DNA of 38,784 bases, taken from the IMG/VR virus record IMGVR_UViG_3300046794_000317, positions 1 to 38,784 of that record; one strand, 5' to 3'. Made by a program: the position numbers and the translations under genes. The notes beneath the pieces are model-generated. The model made no database searches. It was not told the DNA's origin and saw only the letters and a program-made list of their open reading frames with translations. Within the stretch, counting starts at the first letter, position 1. Each line of letters begins with the position of its first letter. The stretch is from a virus. Below are positions 4,571 to 20,772 of the stretch, piece by piece.

Positions 4571-5374
4571 TCAGGCCGGCAGCACAAAGCCGGTCTCTCG
4601 CAGTGCGCCGAAGCGTGCGAGCGGCTCGTCCGGCATCGCCAGTGCCTCCCGTGCCATCTGCACCTGGGTCGGCGTCAGCTTCTCGCCAGCGTCGGCGCGT
4701 GCCAGCAGGTTCCGGGCCCAGGCCTTCGGGTCGGTGCTGGCAGGGCGGTTCACGACGTTGCGGACCAGGTTCTCGATCGCCTGCTTTGCCGCGGCGTTCG
4801 ACGTGGTCGACTTGCCGGGGGCAGTCAGCTGCAGGTGAGGCTTCGGGATCTCGTCCCAGGTGGCTTTCGCCAGCTGCTGCTGGAGCGACTGTTCCCAGCG
4901 GGCCTTGACCTGGCTGTAGCTCTGCTCGCGCAGCTCCACGGCGATAGGCATGGCGGCCCAGTAAATCGCTGGGTGGGACCATTCGCCGTGTTCGCCGTTG
5001 ACGCGGGCCTGCACGCCGTTCACGGCCTCGTAGTACGCCTTGAGCGGGTCCAGCGATGGCCGGCAGGCCTGCACGAATTCGGCGCACGATGGCGGCCAGG
5101 CGAAGCGGCGGCGGCATTCGCGCAGCCCGACCTTGACGTCGGCCGGCGTGATGCCTTCCTCTTCGAACGCCTCGACCCAGCTCTCGGCCCAGTTGTCGAT
5201 CGCCTGCTGGTTCGGGAAGTTGCTGCGCCACTTGTGCGGGTAGGCGCCGTCCAGACGGTTGAACAGGTGATCGATGCAGGAGATGCCGAGGCTCGGCACC
5301 GGATCGAACCACTGCGAGAACGGGCGCGTGGTCGGCGACGAAGGCAGCTCGGGAATTTCGGCGAGGTTGGTCAT
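4571..5374 (-). CDS. Replication protein P-like helicase loader
   Basis: A 267-residue protein that would recruit the host DnaB helicase to the phage origin. Residues about 33-105 carry the lambda P-type block: a basic Trp-Arg segment before FPNQQAIDNW, then the VEAFEEEGIT helix, an Arg-rich helix (LRECRRRFAWPP) and EFVQACRP. The C-terminal half is Gln/Ala-rich and helical. The ATG overlaps the stop of the initiator-like gene by 4 bases. Order (initiator with internal origin, then P) is that of lambda O-P. Confidence 0.85.
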   Translation of the reverse strand: MTNLAEIPELPSSPTTRPFSQWFDPVPSLGISCIDHLFNRLDGAYPHKWRSNFPNQQAIDNWAESWVEAFEEEGITPADVKVGLRECRRRFAWPPSCAEFVQACRPSLDPLKAYYEAVNGVQARVNGEHGEWSHPAIYWAAMPIAVELREQSYSQVKARWEQSLQQQLAKATWDEIPKPHLQLTAPGKSTTSNAAAKQAIENLVRNVVNRPASTDPKAWARNLLARADAGEKLTPTQVQMAREALAMPDEPLARFGALRETGFVLPA

Positions 5375-6363
5375 GACGTGATCCGGTTGCGGTTGACGTG
5401 GGCGACGGGGTCAAACTTCTCGGGGCGGCCAGGATGCGCGGCATGCGGGGGTGTTGGCGGTGCGGCCAGAATCTGCACGACGATGGGCTCGAGGTAGGCG
5501 ATCGACACGTCGCCACCGCGGCCCTGGCGCTCGAGCGTGGCCTTGGCCTTCACGATGGCCGCGTTCAGCACGAGGTCGGTGACGCGCTCGTTCTGCGCCC
5601 AGGTGCAGGCCACGGTCGGATGCATGCCGTCAGCAGCAATGCCCTGGGCGCGCAGCAGCATGGCGATCTGCGTGTGGCGTTCCAGCTTCGGTTTCTGGCT
5701 CGGATGCTCCCGGTCGTCATCGGGCGCGGTAGTTGAAGGCTGAGCAGAGAGAGATGTTTTTAATTCTCCCTGTCCCTGTCCTTCTCCCTGTCCTTCTCCT
5801 TCTCCCTTAAGAGCGTTTTCCGTCGGATTTCCGACGGCTGTCTCAGGGTTTCCGGCGGAATCGCCTGCGCTTTCCAGCGGAATTTCTTTCGGTTCCTCTG
5901 GAAGAATGTCGGAAGTGGTGCCCGGTTCCGGCGGAAGCGGAAGCAACGGACGCCCTTCGGCCTCGCGCTGTTTGTTCGCTTTCCGGATGCGGTCACACTC
6001 TTTCTTCCACTGGTGGTGCAGCTTCGCCTTCCAGCTTTCCAGCGCTTTCTCGGCGACCACCGGGTGATAGAGGCGGCCGTCGGCGCACTTGATCCAGCCG
6101 TGCAGCGCGCCTTCGCGGACGTTCGCCCACTCCTTGACCACGCGGCCATAGCCGGCGGCCTTGGCGAGGAAGCGATCATCGTCAGGAAGGGATGCGGCGG
6201 GCACCTGATGCCAGGCGGCGCTCCAGAGAAGCACCGCGGCCCAGCATGCCTCGGGAGATTCGTACGCGGCCATGTCGCTGTCACGCAGGCGGGCGACGTC
6301 GAGCGGCATGAAGGCGAAGTCCTGCAGATTGCAGTCTGGTGGGGTGAGCGGGGCGGTCGTCAT
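5371..6363 (-). CDS. DUF1376-type replication initiator-like protein
   Basis: This gene occupies the lambda O position. Residues about 12-130 have the DUF1376/YdaU pattern (FAFMPLDVARLRDSD, then ACWAAVLLWSAAWHQVPAASL), a winged-helix-like domain common in phage replication proteins. Residues 140-215 form a low-complexity linker with a Gly-Glu/Gly-Gln repeat. The C-terminal domain (from about 225) is helical and resembles DnaT-type ssDNA-interacting tails. The ATG at 6363 is chosen over an upstream in-frame ATG because it overlaps the preceding stop (ATGA). The linker DNA contains the iterons described separately. The initiator role is inferred from domain, order and iterons. Confidence 0.8.
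   Translation of the reverse strand: MTTAPLTPPDCNLQDFAFMPLDVARLRDSDMAAYESPEACWAAVLLWSAAWHQVPAASLPDDDRFLAKAAGYGRVVKEWANVREGALHGWIKCADGRLYHPVVAEKALESWKAKLHHQWKKECDRIRKANKQREAEGRPLLPLPPEPGTTSDILPEEPKEIPLESAGDSAGNPETAVGNPTENALKGEGEGQGEGQGQGELKTSLSAQPSTTAPDDDREHPSQKPKLERHTQIAMLLRAQGIAADGMHPTVACTWAQNERVTDLVLNAAIVKAKATLERQGRGGDVSIAYLEPIVVQILAAPPTPPHAAHPGRPEKFDPVAHVNRNRITS
5761..5946. other. Probable replication origin: iteron array plus strand-biased tract
   Basis: Within the initiator-like gene, short palindromic elements of the form TTCCGNCGGAA start at 5817, 5828, 5849, 5871, 5893 (weaker), and 5936. Their spacing is 11, 21, 22, 22 and 43 bp, so all are on one helical face. On one side (5762-5809) is a pure-pyrimidine-like tract on the plus strand built of TCCCTG/TCCTTC units. 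Iterons inside an O-like gene next to a strand-asymmetric tract is the lambda ori design. The ori function is inferred. Confidence 0.6.
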
Positions 6364-7152: not shown

Positions 7153-7177
7153 AAAAAAAGCCGCGCGTTACTGCGGC
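7153..7177 (-). terminator. Terminator directly behind cro
   Basis: In the leftward direction GCCGC (7177-7173) pairs with GCGGC (7164-7160), followed by seven U from the A-run at 7153-7159. It overlaps the last codons of cro. Early genes further left would need readthrough or antitermination, as at lambda tR1; no N homologue is recognised. Confidence 0.7.
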
Positions 7178-7368
7178 TGGGATTCGGGTTGGGCGGGCTC
7201 TTGCGAACGCTGCGGCAGCGGAAATACATCCGGATGGTCGAGGCGCACCTGGGCCGGAATGCCACGGTCCTTCCAGTTCTGGACGCGCTGCACGCTGCAG
7301 CCGAGGAGTCCGGCCACCTTCGTGGCGCCGCCAAGGCTCTCAATCAGGTCTTTATCGGACATGGTCAT
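7168..7368 (-). CDS. cro: Cro-like helix-turn-helix regulator
   Basis: A 66-residue protein with a compact helix-turn-helix in residues about 8-40: LIESLGGATKVAGLLGC, then SVQRVQNWKDRGIP. This is the Cro/YdaS type, in which Q-x-V-x-N-W contacts DNA. The C-terminus is Pro/Gln-rich. It is the first gene from the leftward early promoter and is divergent from the repressor, the normal cro position. Two in-frame ATGs (7368 and 7362) are possible; neither has a strong ribosome binding site. Confidence 0.85.
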   Translation of the reverse strand: MTMSDKDLIESLGGATKVAGLLGCSVQRVQNWKDRGIPAQVRLDHPDVFPLPQRSQEPAQPESQPQ

Positions 7369-7392
7369 ACCGGAGATGGTTTAGATGGTCAC

Positions 7393-7422
7393 ATTAAACA
7401 CTATGTTTAAACTCGGTGTCAA
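7393..7422 (-). promoter_or_regulatory. Leftward early promoter (controls cro and replication genes)
   Basis: Minus-strand TTGACA (7422-7417), an 18-bp spacer, and TTTAAT (7398-7393). The spacer is almost the same as in the rightward promoter at 9670-9699, including the operator that fills it. Repression by the CI protein is inferred from the two overlapping operators. Confidence 0.8.
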
Positions 7423-7468: not shown

Positions 7469-8209
7469 ATGCACATTCAAATGGAACGGCTGTACCGCGC
7501 GGCCAAGGAACTCAAGAACATCGGCAGCCAGGCCGAGCTGGCGCGTGCGCTGAACCAGTCCTCGCAAACCATCAACAACTGGGAGGCGAGGGGCATTTCG
7601 AAGTCTGGCTTCCTGATCGCGCAGACGGAGATCGGTTGTTCTGCTGCCTGGCTGATGACCGGCGAAGGGCCGATGACCGTCACCACCCAGGTGGCACAAG
7701 ATGTGGATTCGGACGGCTTCATCACGAACACTCACGGCGGTGCCGTCGACGGTGCACAGCGCGTGCAGGTCGGAAGCGGGCCGGAGACGATCCCTATCCG
7801 AGCGGTCAAGCTGCACCTGCAGGCTGGTGTGAGCGGATTTGTCGCTGAGCCAGACCTTGAAGTCGATCACGGATATTTCCAGGTTCCGAAATACGTGATC
7901 GAGCGTCTTCAGCTGAACCCAGCCGATCTGATAATCATGGCCGTCAAGGGCCGCAGCATGGAGCCGATGTATTTCGAGGACGATAAGGTTCTGGTAGATA
8001 CATCGAAACAGATTCCCAAGAATAACGAGTGCTTTGCCGTGAATTGGAACGGTGAGCCGATTGTGAAATGCCTCATTAAAAAGGCGAATGACTGGTGCCT
8101 TTATTCGTTCAATCCTAAATTCCCGAGCATCAGTGTTCGAAGCGGACAGGCGAGCATTATCGGGCAGGTTATTTGGCAGCCAGAGCGAATCGTAGTAGGA
8201 CGACTGTAA
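7469..8209 (+). CDS. cI: CI-type repressor with LexA-like (S24) self-cleavage domain
   Basis: A 246-residue lysogeny repressor. Residues about 8-65 are a helix-turn-helix (IGSQAELARALNQSSQTINN). Residues about 110-245 are a LexA/CI peptidase domain with the Ala119-Gly120 cleavage site (LQAGVSGF), nucleophile Ser163 in GRSMEP and general base Lys200 in PIVKCLIKK. RecA-stimulated cleavage and SOS induction of the prophage follow from family knowledge. The ATG at 7469 is chosen because longer versions would run through the operators; ATG 7481 is an alternative. The stop abuts the ATG of the HIRAN gene, so the lysogenic transcript carries both. Confidence 0.93.
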   Translation: MHIQMERLYRAAKELKNIGSQAELARALNQSSQTINNWEARGISKSGFLIAQTEIGCSAAWLMTGEGPMTVTTQVAQDVDSDGFITNTHGGAVDGAQRVQVGSGPETIPIRAVKLHLQAGVSGFVAEPDLEVDHGYFQVPKYVIERLQLNPADLIIMAVKGRSMEPMYFEDDKVLVDTSKQIPKNNECFAVNWNGEPIVKCLIKKANDWCLYSFNPKFPSISVRSGQASIIGQVIWQPERIVVGRL

Positions 8210-8599
8210 ATGGAAGAATGTATTGCGGCTCCCTTCATTGAAGGGGCTGGGAATTATCGAATTGATGTGGCTGGCGAATCATTCTATGAAGAGAGTTTCG
8301 CGGCTTTATGTGGTGAGCGGACGATTGAAGGCGTGCGTATTGAGTCCCGTGCGCAGTTGACGCTGCAGGATGACAACCCTCACGACAAGCACGCGGTCGC
8401 AGTGTCGATCGGCGGCCACCAGGTCGGCCACTTGTCCCGTGACGATGCGCGGGCTTTCCGTCGGCTGGTCCGGTACGGGCCGCTAAGCCTTCATGAGCGC
8501 TTCGAGTGCTCGGCCTTAATATGCGGCGGCTGGGATCGCGGCGACGGTGATGTAGGAAATTACGGCGTTCGGCTCGACCTGCTGCTCGACGAAGAATAA
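8210..8599 (+). CDS. HIRAN-domain protein
   Basis: A 129-residue stand-alone HIRAN domain. Visible landmarks are VAGESFYEESFAALCG, then LTLQDDNPHDKHAVAV and GGHQVGHLSRDDARAF, matching the HIRAN pattern of strands with a conserved Asn-Pro-x-Asp. HIRAN domains bind DNA ends, especially 3' ends, in HLTF and related proteins. The ATG follows the cI stop with no gap, so it is made in the lysogen. This is the position of lambda rexA. A role in lysogen protection or sensing of incoming or damaged DNA is inference. Confidence 0.83.
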   Translation: MEECIAAPFIEGAGNYRIDVAGESFYEESFAALCGERTIEGVRIESRAQLTLQDDNPHDKHAVAVSIGGHQVGHLSRDDARAFRRLVRYGPLSLHERFECSALICGGWDRGDGDVGNYGVRLDLLLDEE

Positions 8600-8638
8600 A
8601 AGGCGCAACGGCACGCCCTGATGCCGGATGGGGGTGAG

Positions 8639-9109
8639 ATGAAAACGATCGCTTTATTGATGGCCGTACTACTGTCGGGATGCGCAACTCCGTACCAATC
8701 GAGCGGTGCGCGCGGTGGATTTTCGGACGTGCAATTAGACACAAACGTTTTTCAGATTACGTTCAAAGGAAACGGTTTTACAAGCGCAAGTGACGTTTCC
8801 AATATGGCCCTGCTACGCGGGAGTGAGCTTTCATTAAAACACGGATTTCCATATTTCATTGTCGTTGCTAACAGCGATATTACTCGTACAGCACTGATGC
8901 AAACGCCGGCCTATGCAAATACGACGACAACTGGATATGGCACGCCTGTCCTGCGGTCCAATACGGTAATTACTGGCGGACAGACTTTTGCGGTGGCTCA
9001 TCCAGGAGCAATGACAACAATCGTATGCCTTGAAAAGAAACCGGAAGGCACCTTCGCCTACAACGCGCAATCGATATTTGATTCGCTGTCAAAGACCTAC
9101 ATGAAATAA
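8639..9109 (+). CDS. Lipoprotein, likely CC0125/CC1285-type
   Basis: The ATG at 8639 has a GGGGTGAG site. Residues 1-15 are a lipoprotein signal (MKTIALLMAVLLSGC, lipid on Cys15). The mature part (SSGARGGFSDVQLDTNVF, then TFKGNGFTS and ALLRGSELSLKHGFPYF) has the pattern of the CC0125/CC1285 family, small surface lipoproteins whose function is unknown. Codon use is more AT-rich than in the head genes. It lies second in the cI-linked cargo. In the lysogen it would be anchored in the envelope, where an exclusion role is possible but unproven. Confidence 0.8.
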   Translation: MKTIALLMAVLLSGCATPYQSSGARGGFSDVQLDTNVFQITFKGNGFTSASDVSNMALLRGSELSLKHGFPYFIVVANSDITRTALMQTPAYANTTTTGYGTPVLRSNTVITGGQTFAVAHPGAMTTIVCLEKKPEGTFAYNAQSIFDSLSKTYMK

Positions 9110-9127
9110 TCCCCGCCGAAGCGGGGA
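9110..9127. other. Hairpin between lipoprotein and membrane-protein genes
   Basis: CCCCGC and GCGGGG (about 9113-9118 and 9121-9126) form a short stem with no U-tract. It lies directly in front of the GGGAGGA ribosome binding site of the next gene and may modulate its translation or protect the upstream RNA. Confidence 0.35.
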
Positions 9128-9137
9128 GGGAGGATTG

Positions 9138-9533
9138 ATGACCTGGCAGATGTTTTGGTCTATTGCGGCAGCGGCATCCGGGTTCGCAAGCGCTACTTGG
9201 TTTGGCGCTGGCGCAGTCTTAATAACAGCCGATCAAATGGTTAATGCCGCGGATCCGCCGTGGAAGTCTGTTGAGGCAGACGCCGCCGCATTAGCTTCTC
9301 AATCAGCACAGTACTCAGCTGGTGCGCTGCTTCTTCTCGTTTCGTTTGTTCTTCAAGTTGTGGTAGTCCAAGCGTCAGCAGCCAATGGGCCAGTGCTTCA
9401 TCCAATTCTTGCAAGAACCGCTGTTTTATCACTTCTCGCGGCCTCTCTATTTCTCGTTGCTGGCTGGCCGATCTACGCAGCGCGAAGAACATACCTCCGA
9501 CGACGCATAGCAGCAATCCGAGGGACAACGTAG
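9138..9533 (+). CDS. Membrane protein with three predicted helices, 131 aa
   Basis: The ATG at 9138 follows a strong GGGAGGA. Hydrophobic segments are at about residues 5-30, 60-80 and 90-115, ending in a basic Arg-rich tail (RRTYLRRRIAAIR). It is the last gene before the terminator at 9565-9586. As a multi-pass protein after cI it is the positional counterpart of lambda RexB. An antisense frame (9241-9564) also looks plausible and cannot be wholly excluded. No family recognised. Confidence 0.72.
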   Translation: MTWQMFWSIAAAASGFASATWFGAGAVLITADQMVNAADPPWKSVEADAAALASQSAQYSAGALLLLVSFVLQVVVVQASAANGPVLHPILARTAVLSLLAASLFLVAGWPIYAARRTYLRRRIAAIRGTT

Positions 9534-9564
9534 TCGCTGCGGCATCTCCCATCCCGTCCTCCAC

Positions 9565-9586
9565 GCCCGCACTCGCGGGCTTTTTT
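9565..9586 (+). terminator. Terminator closing the cI-linked transcript
   Basis: A 6-bp stem (GCCCGC at 9565-9570, GCGGGC at 9575-9580) with an ACTC loop is followed by TTTTTT. It separates the repressor-cargo transcript from the rightward early promoter about 85 bp further on. Confidence 0.9.
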
Positions 9587-9657: not shown

Positions 9658-9698
9658 ATAAACAAACTGTTGACACTGATTCTAAACATAGTGTTTAA
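9658..9698. promoter_or_regulatory. Right operator pair for the CI/Cro proteins
   Basis: 9682-9698 (CTAAACA-TAG-TGTTTAA) differs by one base from the reverse complement of the perfect left operator. 9658-9674 (ATAAACA-AAC-TGTTGAC) is a weaker copy over the -35. Centres are 24 bp apart, exactly as at the left promoter. Confidence 0.75.
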
Positions 9699-9699
9699 T
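9670..9699 (+). promoter_or_regulatory. Rightward early promoter (recombination operon)
   Basis: TTGACA at 9670-9675, an 18-bp spacer and TTTAAT at 9694-9699. It mirrors the leftward early promoter and is the only clear promoter before the small-protein/RecT operon. CI repression is inferred from the overlapping operators. Confidence 0.8.
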
Positions 9700-15124: not shown

Positions 15125-16816
15125 ATGCTCCGCGAGACCCTCACCCAAGATATCACCCACTTCCACTTCTGCTGCGGCATCGGTGGCGCAGCCAAGGGCT
15201 TCAACAAGGCCAATCCGCGCATCCCCGGTATGCAAGCCAAGATGCGCTGCCTGGGCGGCGTCGACGTTTCGCCGTCGGCCATCCGCGACTTCGATCGCCT
15301 GGTGGGCGTGCCTGGCACCGTGATGGACCTGTTCACGCGCGGCCAGTACACCGCCTTCCATGGCAAAGAGCCGCCGGCGGCCTGGAAGGAGATGGGCCCG
15401 GTCGACATTCGCCGCGCCGCCGGCAACGAGCGCCCGAACATCGTGTTCATCAGCAGCCCATGCAAGGGCGCCTCGGGCCTGTTGTCCGAGAAGATGAGCC
15501 AGACCGCCAAGTATCAGGCGTTGAACGAGCTGACGCTGCGCTGTATCTGGTTGATGGCCGAGGCCTGGGCCGATGATCCGGTCGACCTGATCGTGTTCGA
15601 GAATGTGCCGCGGCTGGCCACGCGAGGCCGGCATCTGCTGGACCAGATCAACCAGGTGCTGCAGCGCTATGGCTACGCCGTGGCCGAGACCACGCACGAC
15701 TGCGGTGAGCTGGGCGGCCTGGCCCAAAGCCGCAAGCGCTTCCTGCTGGTGGCGCGCCACACGGAGAAGGTGCCGCCGTTCCTGTACGAGCCGGAGAAGA
15801 AGCGCCTGCGTGCCGTGGGCGACGTGCTCGGTCGCATGCCGTTCCCGGGCGATGCCGTGGCCGGCCCGATGCACCGCATCCCGCGCCTGCAGTGGAAGAC
15901 CTGGGTGCGCCTTGCCTTCGTCGAGGCCGGCAGCGACTGGCGCAGCCTGAACCGCCTGGCTGTCGAGAACGGGCACCTGAGCGATTACCTGATCGTGCCA
16001 GACATGCACCGCGGCGTGCTGGGCGTGAACGGCTGGGCCGATTCGATGGGCACGGTGACAAGCCGCAGCATGCCAATGAACGGGAACTTCGGCGTTGCCG
16101 ATCCGCGCTTCGATTCCGGCGTCTACGATTGCGGCCAGTACGGCCTGTGTGGCTGGAACGAGACGATGGGCGCGGTCATCAATGTGAAGAGTCCGGGCCA
16201 GGGCATGTTCGCGGTGCAGGATCCGCGATCGACCAGCGCGTTCGATGGCGCCGGCAAATACCAGATCACGCCCTTCGACCAGCCGGCGGGTACCGTGATC
16301 GCCGCCAGCACTACCGGCCAGGGCGCCTTCGCCGTCGCCGACCCGCGCACCAGCCTGAACACCCGCCAGCAGGGCGATGCCTACCTGACCGGCGGCCACT
16401 ACGGCGTGGTGCCGTGGGGCTCGCCCAGCGGCGCCGTAAGCGCGGCCGCGCGCCAGGACAACGGCCGCTGGTCGGTCGCTGACCCGCGCATCGACACGCT
16501 GCCAGCACCAGACCAGAAAACTGTCGCGATTATCCGCGCGCTGGACGGCACCTGGCACCGGCCGTTCACCACGCTCGAGCTGGCCGCGCTGCAGTCGCTG
16601 ATCGAGCCCGAGGAATACCTGCTGCTGGACGGGATGAGCGACAGCGTATGGCGCGAACACATCGGCAACCTGGTGCCGCCGGAGGCTGCATGCGCGATCG
16701 GGGAAGTGATGGGTACAACGCTGCTGCTGGCACGCGCTGGCGAGACCTTCGTACTGGGCTCGACGCCGATCTGGGTGCGGAATGTGGCGCTGGCTCTGAC
16801 AATGCCGGCGGCGTAA
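15125..16816 (+). CDS. C5 cytosine DNA methyltransferase with tandem-repeat target domain
   Basis: A 563-residue enzyme that transfers a methyl group from SAM to C5 of cytosine in DNA, likely protecting phage DNA from restriction. Motifs are in order: I (FHFCCGIGG, about 13-21), IV with catalytic Cys113 (PCKGAS), VI (ENVP, 159-162), VIII (QSRKR, 201-205), IX/X (TTLELAALQ and IGNLVPPEA near the end). Between VIII and IX lie four units of about 40 residues that each end in a F/W-x-V-x-D-P-R motif (328, 368, 408, 455). It is longer than typical phage Dcm proteins because of this. The ATG at 15125 follows the winged-helix gene by 5 bases. No cognate endonuclease is present. Confidence 0.9.
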   Translation: MLRETLTQDITHFHFCCGIGGAAKGFNKANPRIPGMQAKMRCLGGVDVSPSAIRDFDRLVGVPGTVMDLFTRGQYTAFHGKEPPAAWKEMGPVDIRRAAGNERPNIVFISSPCKGASGLLSEKMSQTAKYQALNELTLRCIWLMAEAWADDPVDLIVFENVPRLATRGRHLLDQINQVLQRYGYAVAETTHDCGELGGLAQSRKRFLLVARHTEKVPPFLYEPEKKRLRAVGDVLGRMPFPGDAVAGPMHRIPRLQWKTWVRLAFVEAGSDWRSLNRLAVENGHLSDYLIVPDMHRGVLGVNGWADSMGTVTSRSMPMNGNFGVADPRFDSGVYDCGQYGLCGWNETMGAVINVKSPGQGMFAVQDPRSTSAFDGAGKYQITPFDQPAGTVIAASTTGQGAFAVADPRTSLNTRQQGDAYLTGGHYGVVPWGSPSGAVSAAARQDNGRWSVADPRIDTLPAPDQKTVAIIRALDGTWHRPFTTLELAALQSLIEPEEYLLLDGMSDSVWREHIGNLVPPEAACAIGEVMGTTLLLARAGETFVLGSTPIWVRNVALALTMPAA

Positions 16817-17774: not shown

Positions 17775-18053
17775 ATGATGGGTGACTTGAACAGGCAGCA
17801 AATCTGCGCCGCGCTGGGCGTGAGCGAATCAACAATAAGGCGGCTCGAGCAGGCTGGTCTACCATATACGCCGGTGGGCGTGAGGTCGAAGCGGTACGAC
17901 CTGGGCGAGTGCAAGAAGTGGTTAAAGGAGAATCAGCAGTGTCAATCTGGGAAGATAAAGACGGTCGGAAGCACGTTGGAGTCATGGTCGAAGGCAAGCG
18001 AGTTCACCGAATCTTGCCGAAGGGTGCATCTGCGAGTGATGCCAAGCGTGTAG
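17775..18053 (+). CDS. xis: Excisionase-like (MerR/AlpA-type) DNA-binding protein
   Basis: Residues about 5-50 are a MerR-like winged helix (RQQICAALGVSESTIRRLEQ, then a wing VGVRSKRYDLGECKKWL), the fold of many phage excisionases and AlpA regulators. It is directly upstream of the integrase and overlaps its start by about 115 bases, a classic xis-int arrangement. The C-terminal 35 residues, encoded in the overlap, look less protein-like. Two ATGs (17775, 17778) follow a G-run. The gene symbol is by position and fold. Confidence 0.75.
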   Translation: MMGDLNRQQICAALGVSESTIRRLEQAGLPYTPVGVRSKRYDLGECKKWLKENQQCQSGKIKTVGSTLESWSKASEFTESCRRVHLRVMPSV

Positions 18054-18934
18054 AAGCCGAGATCCGCGCCGCTGTGGCGCGGGCGCCGAAGACCGTCAAC
18101 ATTCCGGGCGATCCGTCGATGATCGCCATCCTGAACCTGTTCGTCGAGCATTCGAAGACGCTGCGCAGTTCGGAGACGTCCAAATACCATGCCAAGCGTC
18201 TCGGGCCCTGGGCCGAGAAGTACAAGGCGAGCCAGGCGCAGGAGTTTGCCGACCAGGTGATCAAGGACATGAGCCAGCTGGTCGAGCACCCGAAGACGAA
18301 AGAGATGAAGCCAGCGTACGCGCCGGCCACGATCAACCGATCGCTGGCGTGCGCGAAGAAGGGACTAGACATCGCATGGCGACAGCGCCTGATCCCGGAG
18401 AACTACGGCCTGCGCATCAAACTGGTGAGCGTCAACAACAAGCGGGAGGTTTTCCTGACGGTTGATCAGGTGCGCCAGATCGCGCAGCACTGCTCCGAGC
18501 AGGCCCAGGCGGCGATCTGGTTTGCGCTGCTGACCGGCGCGCGCCGTGGCGAGATCTTCAAGATCCGGGCCGAGCACATCGGTGCGGAGACGATCACCCT
18601 GCCGGCCAGCCATACGAAGACCAACCGGATGCGCGTCATCCCGATCATCCCCGCACTGCGTCCGTGGCTCAAGCACCTGCCGCTGACGATCACGGTCGAC
18701 GGCGTGAAGTCGGCCTGGCGCCGTGCGCGCGTGACGGCCGGCATGGAGCACGTGAACTTCCACGACCTGCGGCACTCGTGCGCGAGTATCATGCTGGGCC
18801 TGGGCGTGGACCTCTACACCATCAGCAAAATCCTCGGGCACAGCACGATCCAGACCACGCAACGGTATAGTCACCTGCAGGTGGACGCGCAGCGCGCCGC
18901 GCTGGAGAAGCTGGGCGCCCTGGCCAGCAAATAG
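17939..18934 (+). CDS. int: Tyrosine integrase
   Basis: A 331-residue site-specific recombinase for insertion at, and excision from, the tRNA-Val target. The GTG at 17939 is preferred because AAAGGAG lies 8-9 bases before it; a longer ATG frame (17909) lacks a site. The N-terminal about 60 residues are an arm-type DNA-binding domain, about 60-165 a core-binding SAM-like domain, and 170-330 the catalytic domain with Arg202 (TGARRGE), Lys227 (HTKTNR), His275-x-x-Arg278 (HDLRH), His301 (LGHST) and nucleophile Tyr310 (RYSHL). It is followed by a terminator and attP. Confidence 0.95.
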   Translation: MSIWEDKDGRKHVGVMVEGKRVHRILPKGASASDAKRVEAEIRAAVARAPKTVNIPGDPSMIAILNLFVEHSKTLRSSETSKYHAKRLGPWAEKYKASQAQEFADQVIKDMSQLVEHPKTKEMKPAYAPATINRSLACAKKGLDIAWRQRLIPENYGLRIKLVSVNNKREVFLTVDQVRQIAQHCSEQAQAAIWFALLTGARRGEIFKIRAEHIGAETITLPASHTKTNRMRVIPIIPALRPWLKHLPLTITVDGVKSAWRRARVTAGMEHVNFHDLRHSCASIMLGLGVDLYTISKILGHSTIQTTQRYSHLQVDAQRAALEKLGALASK

Positions 18935-19208: not shown

Positions 19209-19940
19209 CTACGCATTTACACCGATTACACCGGCCGGCACTGGCTGAGCCACCGGCTGCTCCGGCACCTGATGACGCCGCGGCTGCACGCGGGTGGTGG
19301 TGATCGACATCGGCAGGAATAGTGGCTCATCCCGTTGCGGGCCCTGCCGCTTCACGAACCCAATATTGATCCCGCCAGGCGCCGGCCGCACGCTCAAGCG
19401 CAGCGGCGCCGGTGAGGCGTCAACCTCGGCAGCCAGGGTGCGCATGTTGAAGAACAGCGTTTCGCCCTGCTGGGCGGCCAGGTGCAGGCGGCGCAGACTG
19501 TCGGCGCGGACGTGCTGCATGCGCGCGCTGTTCGTGCTCTGGCCGGGCCAGAAGAGCAGGGCACCGTAGCTGCCCGTGCGCAGCACCTGCTCGGCGGCCC
19601 ATAGTGCGTCTGCCGTGCGATCGGCGCGGATCCAGATGGCCGAGGCCGGAGGAATGCCCAGCGCGGCCAGCGACAGCGCCTGGGGCACGTGAGGCGGCGT
19701 AAGCAGCACGACGCGGCGGTCGGCCACCTTGGCCAGCGCCGGCGCCAGCAAGCGCATCTCTCCGATGCCCGGCTGCTGCACCAGCAGATCGACCAGCGTG
19801 CCAACTGGCCAGCCGCCGCCGGGGAGCTGATTCGACAGGGCCGGATGGCCCGTATCGACGCACCGCGTGCGGCCGCGCGCCAGCTGGGAAGCTCGCCAAA
19901 GCGACGGGTGAAGCGCTTCGAGGGCTGGCGCAGTGGTCAT
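19209..19940 (-). CDS. imuA: ImuA-like SOS mutagenesis accessory protein (orphan)
   Basis: A 243-residue RecA-related protein of the ImuA family (COG4544 type), in bacteria the first gene of the SOS-induced imuA-imuB-dnaE2 error-prone repair set. Visible blocks are LWRASQLARGRTRCVDTGHP, LPGGGWPVGTLVDLLVQ, PGIGEMRLLAPAL (degenerate Walker region), the hydrophobic VVLLTPPHVPQALSLAALGI, IWIRADRTADALWAAEQVLR, RLHLAAQQGETLFF and FVKRQGP, all in family order. The ATG at 19940 follows GGAGAG; a LexA box is 15 bp upstream. No imuB or dnaE2 is present. It lies between attP and the lysis genes; its last seven codons (GVIGVNA) are made of integrase arm repeats. Confidence 0.88.
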   Translation of the reverse strand: MTTAPALEALHPSLWRASQLARGRTRCVDTGHPALSNQLPGGGWPVGTLVDLLVQQPGIGEMRLLAPALAKVADRRVVLLTPPHVPQALSLAALGIPPASAIWIRADRTADALWAAEQVLRTGSYGALLFWPGQSTNSARMQHVRADSLRRLHLAAQQGETLFFNMRTLAAEVDASPAPLRLSVRPAPGGINIGFVKRQGPQRDEPLFLPMSITTTRVQPRRHQVPEQPVAQPVPAGVIGVNA

Positions 19941-20220: not shown

Positions 20221-20284
20221 GCCGGCCGTCCACCACCCGCGCGACCAGCACCGCGCCGCGCGGCGTGATGACATGAAGGTCCAT
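20108..20284 (-). CDS. Possible last gene of the lysis operon, 58 aa
   Basis: The ATG (20284) overlaps the Rz stop as TGATG, so translation could be coupled. It starts MDLHVITPRGAVLVARVVDG, beta-like, then becomes Pro-rich. It overlaps antisense the frame at 20044-20220. Coupling favours it; the low-complexity end speaks against it. Confidence 0.45.
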   Translation of the reverse strand: MDLHVITPRGAVLVARVVDGRLILPPAPAEHPAGSAPAPLHPPELRCTQACMTPPAKL

Positions 20285-20772
20285 CAGGGCACCATACCGT
20301 TTTCATGCAGGAAGCGTTGGCATGCCCGACCGGTTGCTAGATCTTCCTCAACCTGAAGCTTCAGCGCGACAATATCTCGCTCAACGTCTGGTCGAACCAG
20401 CCGGCCGGGTGAATCGGTGCTGTCGCTGCCGGCGGCGCCTTCGGCTTTGGTGGGGGCGGGAGGTCCGCCACCACATACCGCGGAGCCGACGTACACGCGC
20501 CGAGTAACAATGCGCTCGCGAACAGGGGCCACTTCTTCATGCTTTTTCTCCGTGATGGTTGCGTTGCTGACGGCCTGGCGGACTGCCTCGGCCGCGTTGG
20601 TTTCGGTGCGCTTGCGCACGGCCTCGGCGTCGGCTGCTGCGCGCTCGGCGATAGCGTCAGCGCGGCCAGCTTCGAACCGCGCGGCGCCATAGTGCTTCAG
20701 GCCCAGCCAGCAGCCGACCGCCAGCACGGCCAGCAACAGCACGGCGGCCAGCAGCCGCTCGAGCGCGCTCAC
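20284..20772 (-). CDS. Rz: Rz-like inner-membrane spanin (i-spanin)
   Basis: A 162-residue i-spanin that, with Rz1, fuses inner and outer membranes as the last lysis step. One N-terminal membrane helix (residues about 5-25, LERLLAAVLLLAVLAVGCWL) is followed by a long periplasmic Ala/Glu/Arg-rich coiled-coil region. The GTG start overlaps the endolysin stop (GTGA), which decides it. Rz1 lies inside this gene in another frame. Order holin, endolysin, Rz/Rz1 is classical. Confidence 0.87.
   Translation of the reverse strand: MSALERLLAAVLLLAVLAVGCWLGLKHYGAARFEAGRADAIAERAAADAEAVRKRTETNAAEAVRQAVSNATITEKKHEEVAPVRERIVTRRVYVGSAVCGGGPPAPTKAEGAAGSDSTDSPGRLVRPDVERDIVALKLQVEEDLATGRACQRFLHENGMVP
20361..20540 (-). 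CDS. Rz1: Rz1-like outer-membrane lipoprotein spanin, nested in Rz
   Basis: A 59-residue frame wholly inside Rz. It has a lipoprotein signal ending in LLLGAC (lipid on Cys16) and a short Pro-rich mature part (DLPPPPKPKAPPAATAP), the hallmark of Rz1 o-spanins. The ATG at 20540 has GGAG at a good distance. The C-terminus ends LSEILSR. Confidence 0.87.
   Translation of the reverse strand: MKKWPLFASALLLGACTSAPRYVVADLPPPPKPKAPPAATAPIHPAGWFDQTLSEILSR

Follow-up and report, generated by a model that had tools for sequence, protein, structure and literature searches.

We found that a small HIRAN-domain protein, encoded directly behind the cI repressor gene of a temperate phage, is a new occupant, unrelated to RexA, of the rex slot of lambda-type immunity regions, a kind of locus already known. 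Sequence comparisons suggest that this HIRAN gene is a fixed element of the immunity cassette, retained while repressors, operators and other passenger genes are exchanged around it.

The HIRAN gene and the lambda-type immunity region

The stretch of DNA analyzed here, which we call the window, is the entire IMG/VR record IMGVR_UViG_3300046794_000317 (38,784 bases). It carries the gene set of a temperate phage: portal, major head and integrase genes, a lambda-P-like replication gene, and genes for RecT and a YqaJ exonuclease. The nearest relatives of its HIRAN protein are found in Massilia-type (Oxalobacteraceae) genomes and in metagenomic phages and, because close relatives occur in Massilia-type genomes and phages, the host is probably a Massilia-type member of the Oxalobacteraceae. 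At the DNA level, no relative of the region was found in INPHARED beyond a 120-nt piece of 69% identity, and a search of the region for RNA elements and tRNAs found none.

The cI gene (7469..8209, + strand) encodes a repressor with an HTH and an S24 (LexA-type) peptidase domain (Peptidase_S24, E=9.5e-19; Phage_CI_repr, 1.1e-4; phrog_4 repressor, 1.1e-37), in which the Ala-Gly, Ser and Lys of self-cleavage are recognizable. Its true start is probably the ATG at 7469 or at 7484 rather than 7385, because the open reading frame start at 7385 lies upstream of, or overlaps, the operator. A cro-like repressor gene (YdaS/P22-Cro-like HTH; 7168..7368, - strand) opens the leftward early operon; its product matches phrog_8008, a DNA-binding protein (E=1e-19), and, with both scores under the cut-off, the Pfam families YdaS_toxin (1.4e-6) and P22_Cro (1.7e-4).

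Two outward-facing early promoters with identical boxes, TTGACA-N18-TTTAAT, enclose cI and its passengers. The leftward promoter (7393..7422, - strand, read from 7422 to 7393) reads into cro and the lambda-P-like gene, and the rightward promoter (9670..9699, + strand, read from 9670 to 9699) reads into the RecT/YqaJ recombination operon; the whole window contains two matches to this pattern, versus 0 expected by chance. Each promoter holds the same 15-bp palindrome, TAAACACTATGTTTA. Copy 1 (7395..7409) lies between cro and cI and overlaps the leftward promoter, and copy 2 (9683..9697), its exact reverse complement, lies to the right of the terminator and within the rightward promoter. A search of the palindrome at up to 3 mismatches returned 3 matches, two of them the exact copies, versus 0.11 expected, and we take the shared palindrome to be the putative CI operator. 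An intrinsic terminator, GCCCGCACTCGCGGGC TTTTTT (9565..9586, + strand), closes the cI operon, and no promoter-like sites were found within the run of cI and its passengers.

This layout mirrors that of the lambda immunity region. As in lambda cI-rexA-rexB, the passengers are co-directional with cI and lie between early promoters that share a common operator (putative here), with cro and the replication gene on one side and the recombination genes on the other, and the first passenger is a putative DNA-binding protein (PMC11077077). The passenger run thus fills the rexAB place, with cI before it and the recombination-operon promoter after it. An earlier note on this DNA had described three genes that follow cI without an intervening promoter, end at a terminator and sit exactly where lambda carries rexA and rexB, and both descriptions held: the promoter scan was empty within the run, and the position matches to the level of the two early promoters and their common palindrome. 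The note also expected expression in the lysogen. The arrangement with cI fits this expectation and, because of the twin promoters with their palindrome and the terminator, we infer that the cI-passenger transcript is made in the lysogen only.

Elsewhere in the window, a gene for a C5-cytosine methyltransferase (563 aa; 15125-16816, + strand; PF00145, E=1.7e-10) has recombination genes on one side and the integrase on the other. A complete ImuA translesion-synthesis gene (19209-19940, - strand; NF033429, E=7.5e-61), unusual for a phage, is flanked by the integrase gene (17939-18934) and an Rz-like spanin gene (20284-20772). Either the phage carries it as an SOS gene, or the record is permuted and this part derives from the host.

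Conservation of the HIRAN protein across cI cassettes

The HIRAN gene (8210..8599, + strand), the conserved core of the cassette, begins with an ATG that abuts the cI stop codon (TAA-ATG) and encodes 129 amino acids. The product matches Pfam family PF08797 (E=6e-8; 32.8 bits versus a curated cut-off of 24.7). Its AlphaFold model (pLDDT 91.8) aligns over 97 residues with bacterial HIRAN 3k2y (Z 8.9, rmsd 3.3) and also matches the HIRAN structures of HLTF (Z 7.0-7.6), and the next, unrelated rows drop to Z 3.4. The HIRAN identity given in the earlier note, which had called the product a DNA-end-binding HIRAN protein, is thereby borne out; end binding is plausible from the residues of the predicted pocket, as described below.

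The HIRAN protein was the only query in these searches for relatives, and neighboring genes played no part in the selection. Seventeen distinct HIRAN proteins, the window's included, are at least 57% identical to that of the window, and all 17 are encoded on the same strand as an S24-type repressor and 0 or 1 gene downstream of it. Across 16 cassettes, which include L144 (HIRAN 46% identical), the median pairwise identity was 61% for HIRAN versus 21% for the repressors. The HIRAN and repressor identity matrices were not significantly correlated (Mantel r 0.19, 281 of 5000 permutations), and we rejected direct coevolution of HIRAN with CI. Because HIRAN is so much more alike than the repressors and the correlation is weak, HIRAN appears to have remained fixed while the repressor was swapped. 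Values of dN/dS for HIRAN ranged from 0.04 to 0.17 (five pairs were computable), and purifying selection appears to act on the gene. For L074, L083, L120 and L123, gene starts were set by hand from the alignment. Related phages that have an S24 repressor but no HIRAN also exist.

A repeated word on both sides of the cI-HIRAN operon was significant in nine cassettes (the window, L003, L004, L005, L072, L079, L080, L082 and L084): shuffles reached the same level in at most 1 of 200. The shared words differ between phage groups. The same test was not significant in L002, L006, L074, L075, L083, L120 and L123, and we claim an operator bracket solely for the nine. In L004, L080, L082 and L084, HIRAN lies about 65-135 nt from the right-hand repeat and is therefore the sole recognizable passenger; it is also the sole recognizable passenger in L005. 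L079 carries a tandem HIRAN pair (4983-5765; 62% and 49% identical to the window's) after one cI and within one operator bracket. The one exception to this placement, the HIRAN of L156 (50% identical), lies outside a cI operon, near a serS-like gene and with no S24 gene seen, and is preceded by a membrane gene resembling that of L006.

Earlier reports place HIRAN in phages, within HipA-type modules and close to diDNases (PMC6469090, PMC8262856, PMC11706625); in the open-license literature, we found no paper on a HIRAN gene fixed in a cI operon. The window protein resembles the HIRAN domains of HLTF/Rad5 and bacterial 3k2y in its fold and in most residues of the pocket for DNA 3' ends, but it has S, D and H in place of R71, N90 and Y93 and is a stand-alone protein of 129 aa without a helicase or kinase. 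It also resembles the HIRANs of HipL/HipN (hipIN modules, PMC8262856) and of HIRAN-HipA-diDNase clusters (PMC11706625) in its mobile or defense-associated setting; no HipA-type kinase or HipS domain was found in the window proteins or in ten scanned cassette passengers. Searches with the PADLOC defense models gave no significant match, the only hit being PDC-M03B (E=0.0029), apparently through the HIRAN part. Finally, the window differs from lambda in the protein that fills the slot, which has a HIRAN fold where lambda has the RexA/RdgC fold, and no RexA or RexB family was among the Pfam matches up to E=1 for the three window proteins.

Proposed role of HIRAN in the lysogen

Decades of debate surround the function of genes at the rex position of lambda. 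Here, a second and unrelated putative DNA-binding protein is fixed at that position, in an Oxalobacteraceae (Massilia-type) phage group; if RexA and HIRAN arrived independently, a protein that binds DNA structures and is co-produced with CI would seem to meet a general need. Natural versions of this small cassette are many, with HIRAN alone, twice, or with differing envelope partners.

The HIRAN domain of HLTF binds single-stranded and fork-like DNA, with Y72 and Y93 stacking on bases, and mutation of N90/N91 eliminates all of its DNA binding (PMC4666394). Residue F142 contributes to duplex binding in HLTF and is mostly absent from the bacterial HipL/HipN HIRANs (PMC8262856). In an alignment of the window HIRAN with HLTF, the equivalents of N91, D94 and H110 are kept, K113 is replaced by R, and the Y72 and F142 positions are aromatic; R71 is replaced by S, N90 by D and Y93 by H. 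The same pattern recurs among the cI-linked copies: the equivalents of N91, D94 and Y73 are present in 18/18 and that of H110 in 17/18, K113 is R or K in 18/18, and the Y72 and F142 positions are aromatic in nearly all, while R71 is Ser, N90 mostly Asp, and Y93 mostly His and otherwise Tyr. Because the HLTF pocket is mostly kept in the cI-linked clade, HIRAN likely binds DNA ends or single-stranded DNA; because R71, N90 and Y93 are replaced, the strength and specificity of that binding are uncertain. In Massilia-type chromosomes (L145-L153), a HIRAN domain lies C-terminal to an apparent DnaQ-type 3'-5' exonuclease within one open reading frame, and these exonuclease-HIRAN frames suggest that HIRAN works at DNA ends.

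Our preferred reading, to which we give about even weight, is that HIRAN is a RexA-like DNA-binding protein of the lysogen that excludes other phages and/or acts on the lysis-lysogeny switch. HIRAN is the first of the passengers in a lambda-type immunity cassette and would be made with CI in the lysogen. The small cytoplasmic protein would bind DNA 3' ends, or junctions of single- and double-stranded DNA, through its HLTF-type pocket. Unusual DNA, such as the ends and forks of phage DNA that is entering or replicating, or of a damaged chromosome, would be sensed, and the protein would respond by impeding the intruder and/or biasing the switch of the prophage. HIRAN would be a functional analogue of lambda RexA and not its homologue, and the lipoprotein and membrane protein encoded behind it would be separate, interchangeable envelope genes (for lysogenic conversion or surface exclusion) on a common transcript.

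Two main branches remain: exclusion of an intruder, which includes DNA-end capture, and effects on the phage's own switch, the chief rival. A conserved place beside cI does not alone establish exclusion activity, and lambda RexA can serve the switch instead, its DNA binding not being strictly needed for exclusion (PMC11077077). HIRAN might act purely as a switch or SOS modulator that binds 3' single-stranded ends and tunes RecA filaments or repressor self-cleavage, thereby setting the induction threshold. The gene follows S24 repressors, most of which have the Ala-Gly/Ser/Lys self-cleavage pattern, and it is retained even where it is the sole recognizable passenger (L004, L005, L080, L082 and L084), both of which would fit such a modulator. 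So would the behavior of RexA: this occupant of the slot in lambda biases the switch, and its structure is related to that of RdgC, a protein that reduces RecA-dependent LexA cleavage (PMC11077077). Nevertheless, direct contact with CI is unlikely because identities among the HIRANs do not follow those among the repressors (Mantel r 0.19), and related S24-repressor phages manage without HIRAN. On balance, we regard a role confined to the switch as possible but rather unlikely.

A more specific form of the exclusion branch, which we consider doubtful, is that HIRAN proteins constitute a new class of superinfection-exclusion proteins that sit at the membrane's inner face and recognize the free end of a phage genome as it comes in. 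In the wider HIRAN family, basic residues follow an N-terminal membrane anchor in many members, an arrangement that would place HIRAN in the cytoplasm. The members of the cI-linked clade are soluble proteins, often adjoining a gene for a small membrane protein. If such recognition at the membrane were true, the cell would mark phage DNA by its linear end during entry.

Improbable, in our estimate, is a role in repair that benefits the host, in which HIRAN would help the lysogen or prophage survive DNA damage by processing forks or ends. HIRAN domains of HLTF do function in fork repair (PMC4666394), and host copies of HIRAN share one reading frame with an exonuclease, but general repair leaves the retention of HIRAN in the immunity operon in 17/17 cases unexplained.

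The envelope genes behind HIRAN

The second passenger encodes a lipoprotein of the CC0125/CC1285 family (156 aa; 8639..9109, + strand; NCBIfam NF047637, E=8.4e-23, 81.7 bits versus a curated cut-off of 40). The ATG at 8639 is a better start than that at 8621, since it yields a normal signal peptide and lipobox (LSGC), and the lipobox Cys (C15) is invariant across 16 sequences. The envelope lipoprotein of the earlier note is thus confirmed, with its start moved to 8639. The protein is a clear member of its family, which is chromosomal in some Burkholderiales, but here it is phage-borne and lies within a cI operon. Its closest relative, 81% identical, is found in L008, behind another cI, without HIRAN and with a different shared word, ACTGTATCAATTG. 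GC3 is 0.48 in the lipoprotein gene and 0.44 in the third gene versus 0.81-0.93 in three early-region genes, and these two genes look recently acquired because of this atypical composition. The predicted fold did not point to a mechanism: the best PDB match of the model (pLDDT 79.7) had a Z of 5.6, which is background, and viral matches were absent at E<=0.001. A weak match to Cor (phrog_1119) was set aside, as it spans the signal peptide only.

The third passenger (131 aa; 9138..9533, + strand) encodes a probable small membrane protein, an orphan recognized by hydropathy. Its ATG at 9138 lies behind GGGAGGGAGG, a strong Shine-Dalgarno ribosome-binding site, and its product has two hydrophobic helices above the hydropathy threshold. 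Searches of phages, viral contigs and 62 Massilia-type genomes found no relatives. Comparison with 392 family genomes gave two marginal matches (E about 7e-4, an internal stop in each), which lie within a host membrane gene and appear to be fortuitous. The two helices agree with the multi-pass membrane protein of the earlier note; the gene itself is probable, and it has a competitor on the other strand, an antisense open reading frame (9241-9552, - strand) that overlaps it and has its own Shine-Dalgarno sequence and one N-terminal hydrophobic helix.

Codon usage gave divided answers for this region. A codon model trained on slot passengers preferred the true strand in 31/31 controls and favored the + strand for the third open reading frame by 0.088 per codon, a value equal to that of the smallest control; a model trained on phage core genes preferred the - strand. 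The latter preference, a weak DUF7269 match of the antisense frame (E=0.002, under the cut-off) and the failure to find homologues for either frame would be consistent with a small membrane protein encoded in antisense in place of the third gene, or with neither frame being a gene. Overlapping antisense exclusion genes are known in Pseudomonas phage Fc02 (PMC9936078). Against this stand the strong Shine-Dalgarno sequence of the + strand frame, its good spacing between the lipoprotein stop and the terminator, the lean of the passenger-trained model toward the + strand, albeit at the lower edge of its controls, and the result of the promoter search, which found none for the antisense frame. We conclude that the third gene is probably real on the + strand, and that the antisense or no-gene alternative, while worth keeping in view, is the less likely one.

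The earlier note had further proposed that HIRAN, lipoprotein and membrane protein form one two-compartment exclusion system, and had called for a check of their neighbors. We searched for the trio in viral contigs, INPHARED phages, genome contigs and 392 family genomes, each gene in at least one of these sets, and found the three together nowhere outside the window. The three genes do not travel together, and different phages pair HIRAN with unrelated proteins: a two-helix protein in L002, a zinc-ribbon membrane protein in L003 and L006, an exported phrog_2320 protein in L072 and L123 with similar proteins in L074 and L144, tail-anchored proteins in L075, and a DUF2513 protein in L120. No envelope gene is visible in six HIRAN cassettes (L004, L005, L080, L082, L084 and L079).

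We also compared HIRAN cassettes with related S24 slots that have no HIRAN. By-eye counts gave envelope passengers in 9/15 HIRAN cassettes versus about 16 of the 22 HIRAN-less cI slots, the latter starting with membrane, exported or lipoprotein genes. Because slots lacking HIRAN are no poorer in envelope genes, these genes appear to be a property of the slot and not of HIRAN, and we rejected the membrane partner as a HIRAN-specific companion. What favors a joint system is that, by layout, the trio genes share one transcript; that membrane or exported genes adjoin HIRAN in L002, L003, L006, L072, L075, L083, L123 and L144; that a pair of transmembrane zinc-ribbon protein and HIRAN recurs (L006 and L156); and that cI, a membrane-anchored HIRAN and a lipoprotein stand in series in the Sheuella-type L097 and L099. 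With the trio seen once, its partners unrelated and at least six cassettes holding HIRAN but no envelope gene, we consider a joint two-compartment system very improbable.

Rex-like defense systems made of two prophage genes offer a comparison. The RexAB-type PP_5643/5644 of P. putida (PMC12894663) and gp30/gp31 of mycobacteriophage Butters (PMC7542560) are likewise cytoplasmic and membrane proteins encoded by a prophage, and they protect the lysogen. Those proteins, however, are constant interacting pairs, as lambda RexAB is a constant pair, whereas the envelope genes in HIRAN cassettes vary between phages and are often absent, and the orphan membrane protein of the window does not regularly accompany HIRAN.

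The arrangement nearest to the trio was seen in a Sheuella-type lineage (L097:4779-6220, L099:4737-6211 and L129), in which a membrane-anchored HIRAN comes after an S24 repressor; in L097 and L099 (about 36% identity), a lipoprotein of 284-287 aa is next in line, and the partners are unrelated to those of the window. Finally, an exported or anchored protein with the motif KDPxSAxFR...CGxVNaKNsyGGYtGF recurs in cI-distal slots with and without HIRAN (L072:5432-5776, L123:6471-6833, L033:3231-3713, L014:3476-3688 and, reversed, L144:1130-1483); in L072 and L123 it corresponds to phrog_2320, a family of unknown function.
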